From Anaerotignum sp. MB30-C6 (lineage in GTDB: Bacteria > Bacillota > Clostridia > Lachnospirales > Anaerotignaceae), in NCBI RefSeq assembly GCF_030908465.1, contig NZ_CP133078.1, forward strand, positions 1,736,001-1,800,000: DNA of 64,000 nt, given 5' to 3'. A program made the position numbers and the translations under genes. The notes under the pieces were generated by a model that was not told where the DNA came from, made no database searches, and saw nothing but the letters and a program-made list of their open reading frames with translations. The number at the start of each line of letters is the position of its first letter. Positions within the stretch are counted from its first letter, which is position 1. Of the stretch, positions 60,356 through 64,000 are shown one piece after another.

Positions 60356-60890
60356 TACCACCACCTCCATCCCTTTATTATAAAACAATAATATGACATC
60401 CACAAGACATATTATCTCGCCCAATTGGACGGAAGAAGTCTCTTATTGGCGTTAATTCAATCATTTTAGGAATGTATAGATAAGGACCCTCTTTCAATAC
60501 TGATAAGGAAAAGCCCCTGTTGCTTTTCATGAACCAACCAAAGTTAAACCCTGACTGTTCATTGCTACAGTTTAAATTTGTGTGTGCATATAAAATAGCA
60601 AAATAAAGCTTTTAGGAAATAAGCTTGAAGTACTTCAAAGGTACTCTTTAGTTTATTTCGAGGCAAAAAATATGACTAAGCTTAGTAGAAACTAAACTTA
60701 GTCTATTAGGAACTTTGGTTTTTGATGGGAATTTAAAAGTAAATATGTTTCTGTGGTAGATTATTTTCAACAAGACAAAACGTCTTTATTTAAAAATGAA
60801 CACCAGAACAGAGAAATAAAATTTCTCTACGGATGAATATAACATTCATCATAAAAAAGGTAAAGCTATCCTTTCGCTTTTGAAATATCT
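60356..60890. other. Gene-free region before the hydrogenase genes
   Basis: 535 bp without a gene. It contains an imperfect 13-bp hairpin GACTAAGCTTAGT/ACTAAACTTAGTC (60673-60704) and two hairpins near the hydrogenase 3' end: AGAGAAAT/ATTTCTCT (60814-60832) and GATGAAT/ATTCATC (60833-60851). These two may end the hydrogenase transcript, but no T run follows on the minus strand. Confidence 0.5.
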
Positions 60891-62267
60891 TTAAACAACC
60901 TGCATGGAATTGATACACTTTCCTTCAGAATAAACGTGTGTGGCACAAGATACGCATGGATCAAAAGATCGTATGATTCTGCCAATCTCAACAGGACTTT
61001 GAGTATCACGGACAGGCGCTCCCATTAATGACTGCTCACCTGTGCCTTTCATATTTCCGGTTTGCGTTGATAAATTCCAAGCCGAGGGTGATATGATTTG
61101 ATATAAGGCAATTTTGCTGTCCTCTACCAAAACCCAATGGCCAAGGGCACCCCTCGTTGTATCTACTAAACCTTTCCCACTACCTTTTTCTGGTACAGTA
61201 TAATGTTCTTGTACAGAAACTCCAGGTATTAAATTTTCTAAAAGAGTTTTCATGATTCCTACAATTTTTCTAGCCTCCAAAACCCTTGCAATGGTACGAT
61301 CCATAGCAGATATCCCATTTCTATAGTCCCCGCAAAGCCATTGCCTTGCCAGTGGCCCAACTTCATATGGAACATCATTATATCTGGGTGCCTTTATCCA
61401 AGAATATGCTCCTTGTTTTTGAATATCAGGTTCATCGGCCTCATCATACCAAGCAAACTCTCGTCCCTGTGAGATTTCGTCTGGATTGAAAGCTGAGATT
61501 TTATTATTGGAATACACAAGGGGGTCTACATACAACGTTCCTAATTCTTTGTAGTTATCAAAGCAACCATAGCTTAATAAATTGCCGTACCCTCCGCCAA
61601 TAAAGTAATATTCGTAATAATACTTTCCGATTTCAAAAACATCAGGAAGCATCTTGTCGTCTAAAAATTTCCCGATTTTATCAAGGATTGAAGTGATTGC
61701 GATTATTTTATCTACCGTTGCCTGGGATGTAATCCCACCGATAAAAATGCCATGGTTATGGGGAGCTTTTCCTCCCAGTATGGCTAACATTTGATGTGCA
61801 TCTCGACTAAATTCAAGAGAAGCGAAGTAATCCTCTACCATCCTATCATTGAGTTTTTTTGGCAGCCTATAGTCATTATGACCTGTCTGAAATAGGGGGT
61901 AGTTTGCTGGCAGCTTTACAAAGTCAGGTAGTGTATATTGATAAAAATGCCGCAGATGATTTTGGAGAAACTCACATGCATGAATAATATCTCTAAGGTA
62001 TCGCCCCTGCTCCGAGGGAACAAAATCCATAGCATCTTCTAGGGCAAGGGTTGAAGCCAAGGCATGTGCCGTTGAACATATACCACATATTCGTTCGGTA
62101 AAATAAATGGCATCAAAAGGATTTCTACCCGTTAGCATTTTTTCAAACCCACGAAACATCATACCCTTTGTTTTTGCATCTACGATGATATTGTTTTCCA
62201 CCTCTGCTTCTATTTCCATAAATCCGCTGATTCGGGTAACGGGGTTTATCGTTATTCTTTCTGCCAT
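60891..62267 (-). CDS. [NiFe] hydrogenase large subunit
   Basis: 458 residues. Ni-site motifs: L1 RICGICSTAH near residue 60 and L2 DPCVSCATH near the C-terminus. After His there is a 14-residue tail (VYSEGKCINSMQVV) that a specific endopeptidase should remove after NiFe insertion. The FRGFEKMLTGRNPFDA stretch is typical of group 1/2 uptake-type enzymes. Start ATG at 62267 with AGGGGTG upstream. It follows the small-subunit gene by 2 bp; no membrane cytochrome gene is visible downstream. Confidence 0.95.
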   Translation of the reverse strand: MAERITINPVTRISGFMEIEAEVENNIIVDAKTKGMMFRGFEKMLTGRNPFDAIYFTERICGICSTAHALASTLALEDAMDFVPSEQGRYLRDIIHACEFLQNHLRHFYQYTLPDFVKLPANYPLFQTGHNDYRLPKKLNDRMVEDYFASLEFSRDAHQMLAILGGKAPHNHGIFIGGITSQATVDKIIAITSILDKIGKFLDDKMLPDVFEIGKYYYEYYFIGGGYGNLLSYGCFDNYKELGTLYVDPLVYSNNKISAFNPDEISQGREFAWYDEADEPDIQKQGAYSWIKAPRYNDVPYEVGPLARQWLCGDYRNGISAMDRTIARVLEARKIVGIMKTLLENLIPGVSVQEHYTVPEKGSGKGLVDTTRGALGHWVLVEDSKIALYQIISPSAWNLSTQTGNMKGTGEQSLMGAPVRDTQSPVEIGRIIRSFDPCVSCATHVYSEGKCINSMQVV

Positions 62268-62269
62268 GC

Positions 62270-63178
62270 TTACACCCCTTTCGTAGGATTAAAGTTAACA
62301 AATGGCTCCATCGCATCGGGAAAGCCAAACTGTGCGCAGCCAATACATGGTGAGTCATCTTCAATTGGCCAATTCACATGGCCATTCCATTGTCGTATTG
62401 GGCAGTCAATGCGAGTTACGGGTCCTCGGCATCCAAGTTTAAACATACAGGTTTTTTCCCCAAGCTTCGTTGCAAAAATACCATTATCAAAATAGGATCT
62501 CCTTGGACATCTATCATGAATGGTTGTGCTATAAAACATCAATGGACGATTTCTGCTATCTAGGGGTGGTTCCCCATATAATATTATGTATGCTAGGGTT
62601 CCCATAAACCAATCAGGATGGCATGGACAACCTGGTAGTTGAATTACTTTTCTTTGCAAAACTTCGTGAACACCTACGCAAGAGGTGGGATTAGGCCTTG
62701 CTGCAGATATGCCGCCATGGGATGCACATGCACCCACGGCTATGACATATGCGGCCTGTTCCCCTAGTCTCTGGACTGCCTCCAGCCCAGTTACAGCTTC
62801 ATGATTATGCCGTCCAATAATATTATAACGACCGTCTTCTTTTAAAGAAACGGCACCCTCCACTGCAAGAATGAAATTAGACCCGATTACGTCAAACAAT
62901 TCATTCATGGCTTGGTTTCCCTCGGCGGCAAGCAAACTATTGCTATAGGTAATGTTCGCCATATCAGTAATGAGGTACTGGAAGTCTGGATTTTGACCAT
63001 TTAGCAGCGAGATGATATTGCCCGCACATCCATTTAATTCAAGCCAGACAAGATTTGGTTTTACTAATTTTTCTGCTTTGATGTCGTTATTTACCCTTGC
63101 TACAAGGTTTGCCGTAGATTTTAATTTATTGTCTTGATATGGACATTTGAAATTTTTTGAACTCATATGGCTCACCAA
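62270..63178 (-). CDS. [NiFe] hydrogenase small subunit with altered proximal cluster site
   Basis: 302 residues. No Tat signal, so it is cytoplasmic. Distal and medial cluster ligands are complete (HDRC, TC-GC in KTCMFKLGC, DCP, CIGC). The proximal site has Cys51, VGACASHGG and LPGCPC, but the fourth ligand position (usual CxxC) reads CAGN, with Asn54. Group 1h enzymes use Asp at this type of site, so a 3Cys-1Asn or 3Cys cluster is possible here. Start at 63178; an internal ATG five residues on is an alternative. It lies between the cytochrome b5-like gene and the large subunit. Confidence 0.93.
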   Translation of the reverse strand: MVSHMSSKNFKCPYQDNKLKSTANLVARVNNDIKAEKLVKPNLVWLELNGCAGNIISLLNGQNPDFQYLITDMANITYSNSLLAAEGNQAMNELFDVIGSNFILAVEGAVSLKEDGRYNIIGRHNHEAVTGLEAVQRLGEQAAYVIAVGACASHGGISAARPNPTSCVGVHEVLQRKVIQLPGCPCHPDWFMGTLAYIILYGEPPLDSRNRPLMFYSTTIHDRCPRRSYFDNGIFATKLGEKTCMFKLGCRGPVTRIDCPIRQWNGHVNWPIEDDSPCIGCAQFGFPDAMEPFVNFNPTKGV

Positions 63179-63185
63179 CTTTACA

Positions 63186-63662
63186 TTAAGATAAGTATCC
63201 CACGATAGGTAGTTTGTTTAATGTCGATTCAAAACCTTTATGACAGGTGGCAAATTTACTAGTCAAATCTTGCCCCGCATTAAGGCGAAAATGAGTACCC
63301 CCAGCCCAGGAAGGGATATTTGTCACATCATAGACAACGCCATTAACAGCGACATAGGTAGGCCTGCCATCCTTACCGTCATAGTAAGCTAGTTCTTCCA
63401 AAGTAAAATACCTTGTTGTGTTAGAATCTGGCTGAACATGCTGTACAGAAACTCTAGGATAATGTGACGGCACTTCCTTGCTATTCTCTTGATTCAACTC
63501 AATAAAACAAGTAATATTCTTCTCTAACATCTTAACTTCTCTATCTAAATGTACCAAAACTTGCTGCTTATCAACTCGCTTATTGGAACTGAGTTTTTCT
63601 ATATGTATATTTATTTGAGAAATACTTTTCAGTATAGAATCAAAAAACAAATGTAATTCCAT
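63186..63662 (-). CDS. Cytochrome b5-like haem-binding protein
   Basis: 158 residues. The N-terminal 90 residues are helical and hydrophilic without a signal or anchor. The C-terminal 70 residues are a bacterial cytochrome b5-like domain (YDGKDGRPTYVAVNGVVYDVTN, WAGGTHF, AGQDLTSKFATCHKGFE, LPIVGYL), with His in GGTHF and CHKG as likely axial ligands. The ATG at 63662 is used, AGGAGG 8 nt upstream; an ATG at 63683 lies before the site. It is 7 bp upstream of the hydrogenase small subunit and probably exchanges electrons with it. Confidence 0.85.
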   Translation of the reverse strand: MELHLFFDSILKSISQINIHIEKLSSNKRVDKQQVLVHLDREVKMLEKNITCFIELNQENSKEVPSHYPRVSVQHVQPDSNTTRYFTLEELAYYDGKDGRPTYVAVNGVVYDVTNIPSWAGGTHFRLNAGQDLTSKFATCHKGFESTLNKLPIVGYLS

Positions 63663-63724: not shown

Positions 63725-64000
63725 TTAACAAATTCTAGGCACCATCTGCCCCTCTAAGCTAGGCATCACTCGTTTGCCGCCAATGCTTGTTTTCAAATAT
63801 ACGGTCTTTTGATAATCATTTGTAAAACGACCAATACTTTGGGCGTTTTCGTACCCCCGCAGTTTCCTTAATTTTTGTAAAACCCTTTTCCCAAATCCGT
63901 TTTTTACCACCAATATCATTCTACCTTCACACGCAAGATAGAATGGGTCTATTCCCAAAATATCATTGATTGCTTTTATTTGGGGATTCATTGGTATCCT
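63725..64000 (-). CDS. hypE: Hydrogenase maturation protein HypE, C-terminal part (partial)
   Basis: The minus-strand frame is open from the window edge and gives the last 91 residues of HypE: ILGIDPFYLACEGRM, IGRF, KTSIGGKRVMPSLEG and the C-terminal VPRIC. The terminal Cys carries the thiocyanate that becomes the cyanide ligands of the NiFe site. The upstream part lies outside the window; the ATG at 63991 is internal. Its position suggests a hyp operon that continues into the cytochrome and hydrogenase genes. Confidence 0.93.
   Translation of the reverse strand, partial: RIPMNPQIKAINDILGIDPFYLACEGRMILVVKNGFGKRVLQKLRKLRGYENAQSIGRFTNDYQKTVYLKTSIGGKRVMPSLEGQMVPRIC

Follow-up and report, generated by a model that had tools for sequence, protein, structure and literature searches.

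The [NiFe]-hydrogenase encoded at the end of the window (the whole stretch of DNA analyzed, 64,000 nucleotides from Anaerotignum sp. MB30-C6) is accompanied by a cytochrome b5-domain protein which, judging from gene context and comparison with related loci, probably serves as an electron-transfer subunit dedicated to this enzyme, which is itself probably soluble, cytoplasmic, and active in H2 uptake. The partnership of b5 with the hydrogenase, as put forward in the original prediction, is strongly supported by conservation of the operon, by the position of the small subunits in one clade, and by a natural fusion of b5 with the small subunit. A b5 protein in this role would add a partner type to the group 1 hydrogenases, and the natural fusions allow its electron path to be probed directly in small soluble proteins.

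The tail of the operon, read on the minus strand, comprises the end of hypE, b5, the small subunit, and the large subunit, after which comes a terminator-like hairpin (Table 1). Upstream of hypE, the ORFs and Pfam matches of locus L002 comprise hypD, hypC, hypF, hypA, a HycI-type protease, tmB, and tmA; the assignment of hypA is weak, as it follows position and a slight likeness, with no Pfam match. The operon begins with tmA and tmB, which encode two small membrane proteins and lie, together with the hyp genes, mostly outside the window; in L002, 5S and 23S rRNA genes precede this end of the operon. As anticipated, no usual partner is encoded downstream: the large subunit is followed by the hairpin, and no acceptor gene is seen beyond it. 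A gene for a membrane cytochrome b or a c3-type partner was likewise not recognized among the ORFs and Pfam matches of the operon in L002.

Table 1. Location of the hydrogenase operon features and of related b5 genes (positions refer to the window unless a locus is named)
Feature	Location	Strand	Evidence or remark
Cytochrome b5-domain subunit	63186..63662	-	ORF; PF00173, 37.6 bits; RBS AGGAGG; match to 6nzx, E 1.6e-15
[NiFe]-hydrogenase small subunit	62270..63178	-	PF14720, 112.6 bits; PF01058, 89.2 bits; alignment; solved relatives
[NiFe]-hydrogenase large subunit	60891..62267	-	PF00374, 321.9 bits; motifs in alignment
Terminator-like hairpin and T-run after large subunit	60674..60703 (L002 2704-2675)	-	consensus match only
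hypE, C-terminal end (gene runs past window edge)	63725..64000	-	TIGR02124 match
tmA-tmB pair	L002 11006-11768; L203 6105-6832		operon head (L002); standing alone, G1048 (L203)
b5-small subunit fusion ORF	L123 6396-7718		G696
b5-ferritin-like fusion ORFs	L130 6899-7717; L168 1477-2313		two genera
Double-b5 proteins	L054 10061-12208; L055 8231-9484; L056 7868-9559; L057 7774-9357		hydrogenase operons, genus g60
b5 gene with in-frame stops	L125 5954-6255		before small subunit
b5 proteins of the order, away from hydrogenase	L047 9399-9803; L044 9353-9706; L045 9558-9809		

Both hydrogenase subunits are of a recognizable type. The large subunit carries RICGICSTAH and DPCVSCATH as its nickel-site motifs, conforming to RxCGxCxxxH and DPCxxCxxH, the Ni-site motifs of group 1 [NiFe]-hydrogenases. 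The small subunit contains the Oxidored_q6 and NiFe_hyd_SSU_C domains (Pfam), and NiFeSe/NiFe hydrogenases rank best among its solved relatives (E about 1e-55). It could start at TTG 63178 or at ATG 63166; the latter, preceded by GGTGAG, is likely the better-supported start. The 7 bp gap to b5 given in the original prediction thus holds for the TTG start, while the ATG start leaves 19 bp. The small subunit has no twin-Arg (Tat) motif at its N-terminus and no C-terminal tail, which, along with the ORFs and the Pfam match of b5, confirms the predicted arrangement of a b5-like protein before a Tat-less small subunit.

The pair is conserved well beyond this genome. The small subunit is present, at E 1e-20, in 17 of 392 genomes of the order, and b5 lies directly upstream of it in 16 of these neighborhoods, with one b5 domain in 11, two in 4, and a fragmentary one in G239; in the seventeenth, G060, no b5 was found beside the hydrogenase. 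The Pfam b5 family occurs in 27 of the 392 genomes. A b5 domain and the small subunit co-occur in 14 genomes against 1.2 expected (Fisher p about 7e-16, with automatic cut-offs and the two sets of 392 taken as identical), which excludes chance. In the other 13 of the 27 genomes, b5 domains occur in the absence of this small subunit, so b5 proteins have other uses in the order too and are not exclusive to the hydrogenase. At the class level, the small subunit is found in 21 of 391 genomes, the present one included. Among the other 20, an intact b5 is retained in the operon in 16 (13 directly upstream, 1 following the protease gene, 1 as a fusion with the small subunit, and 1 as a fusion with a ferritin-like domain); the remaining four all belong to genus g232 (G457, G762, G678, and G630), one having a decayed b5 and three none in the stretch read. 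The original prediction made the partnership hinge on such conservation, and the pair is kept in both sets. Nevertheless, b5 is dispensable in places (absent in G060, absent or decayed in g232), which weighs against the reading as a dedicated subunit.

In the phylum, the C-terminal family of the small subunit occurs in 122 of 398 genomes. Thirty loci were read with flanks of up to about 1.5 kb; b5 was seen in three (L153, L166, and L158, which is the present genome) and not in the other 27; L158 duplicates the locus of the window and was removed from the tree and later tables. Two second-copy hydrogenases of another type, L134 (G234) and L136 (G583), carry the usual proximal Cys, and b5 is missing from the stretch read around them; they were kept in the tree as lacking b5 and stand outside the counts of 17 and 20 genomes. 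In L125, the b5 gene preceding the small subunit has an in-frame TAG at a conserved Trp and a TGA at a conserved Cys; the gene is probably decayed, and the TGA at the Cys position raises the possibility of selenocysteine. Some apparent matches were discarded: five Bacteroidia loci matching the b5 protein over a chance stretch of 21 residues contain frames that presumably encode ROK-type sugar kinase-like proteins, and two hits in L159 are low-complexity ORFs on the opposite strand.

Gene order also bears on whether b5 could be a maturation helper or a passenger of the operon, a role that its place among hyp and protease genes and its loss or decay in a few genomes might suggest. Between genera, the hyp genes shift from upstream to downstream of the small subunit, whereas b5 keeps its place beside it everywhere except in G573; moreover, the fusion in G696 is with the small subunit. 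Such a role is therefore highly improbable. The divergence of b5 follows that of the small subunit (r = 0.75 over 32 pairs, L039 and L135 left out; none of 5000 permutations as high), although shared descent alone would also produce this correlation.

When 67 small subunits are placed in a maximum-likelihood tree, all those labeled as having b5 fall in one clade with a support of 100/100. The clade comprises 38 rows, 34 labeled b5 (including the decayed L125) and 4 without. The label changes three times on the tree, compared with 22.8 times in shuffles, which would fit one gain and two losses, with several inner forks left open. Members of the clade share features of unexported enzymes. A Tat-like regular expression is absent from 37 of its 38 rows and present in 24 of the 29 others, the only hit within the clade being L118, where the ORF overlaps with b5 in its 5' part. 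In all 37 clade rows that could be measured, no more than 40 residues follow the last cluster motif; of the rows outside the clade, 24 carry a longer C-terminal tail, 3 are short-tailed, and 2 are unmeasurable. The lack of both the Tat motif and the long tail indicates that b5 accompanies hydrogenases that look soluble and unexported.

The proximal cluster motif proved to be a less specific feature. In the small subunit of the window (62270-63166), it reads GCAGN, with Asn where the five solved relatives compared have Cys. The fourth proximal position is Asn in 28 of the clade rows, Glu in 7, Gln in 2, and unreadable in 1; in the 29 rows outside, it is Cys in 13, Asp in 8, Asn in 6, and unread in 2. 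Because of these Asn and Asp residues outside the clade, Asn at this position was dropped as a mark of b5 hydrogenases.

Natural fusions also tie b5 to the hydrogenase. On the single contig of G696, b5 and the small subunit form one 440-aa ORF, whose Cyt-b5, Oxidored_q6, and SSU_C domains all score above their cut-offs. In the 20 genomes of its family that were searched, four others (G1221, G1225, G1227, and G1228) keep separate ORFs, with b5 and the small subunit in the same frame and one stop between them. Recoding of this single TAG was considered and rejected, since it is an ordinary b5 stop next to or near the start of the small subunit. In G696, the few residues flanking the stop are gone, which leaves the frame open across the junction; a single sequencing error is thus an unlikely cause, although the fusion is seen in one genome.

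A different fusion is found in G747 and G1171, which represent two genera of one family: b5 forms the C-terminal part of a rubrerythrin/Mn-catalase-like protein encoded just before the small subunit. Of 71 genomes in this family, these two alone gave a full-length match, and the Pfam search covered the G747 protein. The ferritin-like domain keeps, by eye, paired ExxH motifs, presumably those of di-iron proteins. In genus g60, the b5 protein reaches 417-715 aa and consists of two b5 domains with a repeat between them that is collagen-like or rich in Pro, Gly, and Thr and resembles those of spore-surface proteins; a Pfam Collagen match is found in the spacer of L057 only. The second b5 domain was detected by profile in G212 and G234 and elsewhere by eye. 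It retains both His motifs in one of the four full-length proteins and has lost one or both in the other three.

Within the window, the b5 ORF on the minus strand opens at ATG 63683 (165 aa) or ATG 63662 (158 aa). Since AGGAGG precedes ATG 63662, the 158-aa protein is the likely product. Its Pfam score exceeds the family cut-off of 23.7 bits, and its best relative among solved structures is 6nzx, a soluble archaeal cytochrome b5 of the same HPGG-less type, in which W..G.H and a second His are found and no link to a hydrogenase is seen. HPGG, the heme-binding motif of cytochrome b5, is not found in the b5 protein, which has WAGGTH instead. The conserved His motifs of the domain are W..GxH and CH, and the proposed heme ligands are placed at His131 and His148 (165-aa numbering) as likely candidates. 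The second is a likely rather than a proven ligand, because in the pairwise alignment it stands one residue nearer to the DLT motif than its counterpart in 6nzx.

The first of these His residues presumably lies near the position of the heme-binding Tyr of PGRMC1. MAPR/cytb5MY proteins likewise contain b5-type domains; their heme ligand is described as a tyrosinate in the part of PMC10093951 used here, whereas the alignment places His at the first ligand motif of the present protein.

A b5 domain that binds no heme and serves as a structural or docking subunit only is very unlikely. The missing HPGG, a heme pathway that is not seen, and the loss of His motifs from the second domain in g60 would suit it; however, 33 of 34 hydrogenase-linked proteins have, by loose patterns, both His motifs in their first b5 domain (a count leaving out L125, L158, and L044, L045, L047, and L048, where b5 is not beside the hydrogenase). 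The clear similarity to 6nzx points the same way, as that protein, from Hadesarchaea, is reported to be a monoheme b-type cytochrome in the sections of PMC7096707 consulted.

The b5 protein has no membrane anchor, in line with the original prediction: neither it nor the small subunit contains a 19-residue segment with a mean hydropathy above 1.6. The predicted helical N-terminal part fares less well; helices appear there in a single-sequence AlphaFold2 model of low confidence only (mean pLDDT 46), and this is the least conserved stretch of the b5 alignment. Further b5 proteins of the same order are encoded away from a hydrogenase (L047, L044, and L045, Table 1), and one of them has, by eye, a lipoprotein-like signal.

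Heme for b5 would have to come from elsewhere. A search of 20 genomes (17 with this hydrogenase and 3 congeners without it; 16 of them at least 90% complete) gave no ferrochelatase, against matches in 8 of 14 controls. ALAD, which the known routes of de novo tetrapyrrole synthesis all require, is present in 7 of the 20 genomes and in 11 of the 14 controls; the 13 genomes without it include the present one and the 7 congeners searched. The present assembly is a single contig with a stated completeness of 92%, which leaves room for a gap, although the absence of ALAD throughout the genus speaks against one. As neither ALAD nor ferrochelatase was found in the genome, heme, if bound by b5, is scavenged. 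Strict anaerobes devoid of heme synthesis are seldom thought to use heme, and if the subunit needs it, scavenged heme would be linked to clostridial H2 metabolism.

This dependence could also be read as a form of control, with the scavenged heme turning b5 into a sensor or assembly switch of a heme-gated enzyme rather than an electron wire. External heme could act as a signal in genomes without ALAD and ferrochelatase, and the variable N-terminus of b5 would be in keeping with this. We consider it quite unlikely, since the fusions with the small subunit and with the ferritin-like domain suit electron transfer better and since b5-domain proteins are mostly electron carriers.

For b5 as an electron-transfer subunit, the following path may be proposed. 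H2 would be split at the Ni-Fe site of the large subunit, and the Fe-S clusters of the small subunit would conduct the electrons to the heme of b5, docked near the distal cluster and supplied from outside the cell; a cytoplasmic acceptor would receive them next. The identity of this acceptor is a guess, because none beyond b5 is conserved in the neighborhoods read. The potentials of b5 proteins are generally well above that of H2, which implies H2 uptake as the direction. The [FeFe]-hydrogenase family PF02906 is matched in 24 of 24 genomes tested, making the recycling of self-made H2 plausible; fermentative H2 would probably be directed into a stress or detoxification reaction, a use suggested by the fusion of b5 to a rubrerythrin/ferritin-like domain in relatives. 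While the ferritin-like fusions suggest peroxide or oxygen as the acceptor, the tmA-tmB pair suggests the membrane, mainly in this genus.

A membrane route, with b5 bridging the hydrogenase to tmA and tmB, is unlikely. It draws on the occurrence of tmA in all five genomes of the genus with the hydrogenase and none of the three without, on the position of tmA-tmB at the head of the operon in all four starts read (G000, G003, G005, and G007), and on the 2 and 3 hydrophobic segments of the two proteins. Yet among 17 genomes of other genera, G1048 alone has tmA, and there the pair is on another contig than the hydrogenase; moreover, neither protein has a Pfam match above cut-off or a recognized heme or quinone site. 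Somewhat speculatively, and with a rather low likelihood, the hydrogenases with scavenged-heme b5 might drive H2-dependent reduction of peroxide or oxygen through a rubrerythrin/ferritin-like di-iron protein, with a collagen-like spacer in one genus. If so, heme uptake would switch on an H2-powered defense.

The best solved relatives of the small subunit are periplasmic [NiFe]/[NiFeSe] hydrogenases (1cc1, 4kl8, and 1frv), which have Cys at the fourth proximal position, in contrast to Asn, Glu, or Gln in the b5 clade. Periplasmic enzymes of this kind are exported by the Tat system, and their usual partners are cytochrome c3 or a membrane cytochrome b. Closer counterparts are described in the portion of a 2022 paper (PMC9431212) drawn on here, where a cytochrome b5 gene is noted beside group 1a hydrogenases of Clostridium carboxidivorans, C. 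drakei, and C. scatologenes that likewise consist of Tat-less small and large subunits, the group 1a class being taken from that source. According to the same portion, these Clostridium acetogens have few candidates for heme synthesis, and no b5 gene occurs in the hydrogenase neighborhoods of the other acetogens it covers. Their hydrogenases are probably the same system as the present one, likened by description rather than by sequence. In the titles, abstract openings, and passages of open-literature papers that the search covered, no other report of the pair was found; the parts of PMC8578096 and PMC12727194 consulted, considered as candidates, deal with cytochromes b559/b554 and b561 rather than b5.

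The expectation that a b5-type acceptor in a strict anaerobe would be a new hydrogenase architecture consequently stands in part: the b5 neighbor had already appeared in PMC9431212, which, as far as the portion used here goes, records the neighbor only, with no clade, fusions, wider distribution, or mechanism. What appears to extend that record is the clade with its distribution, together with the fusions and the forms with two b5 domains, and the b5-linked enzyme is filed here as a variant of the group 1 [NiFe]-hydrogenases, not as a separate kind.
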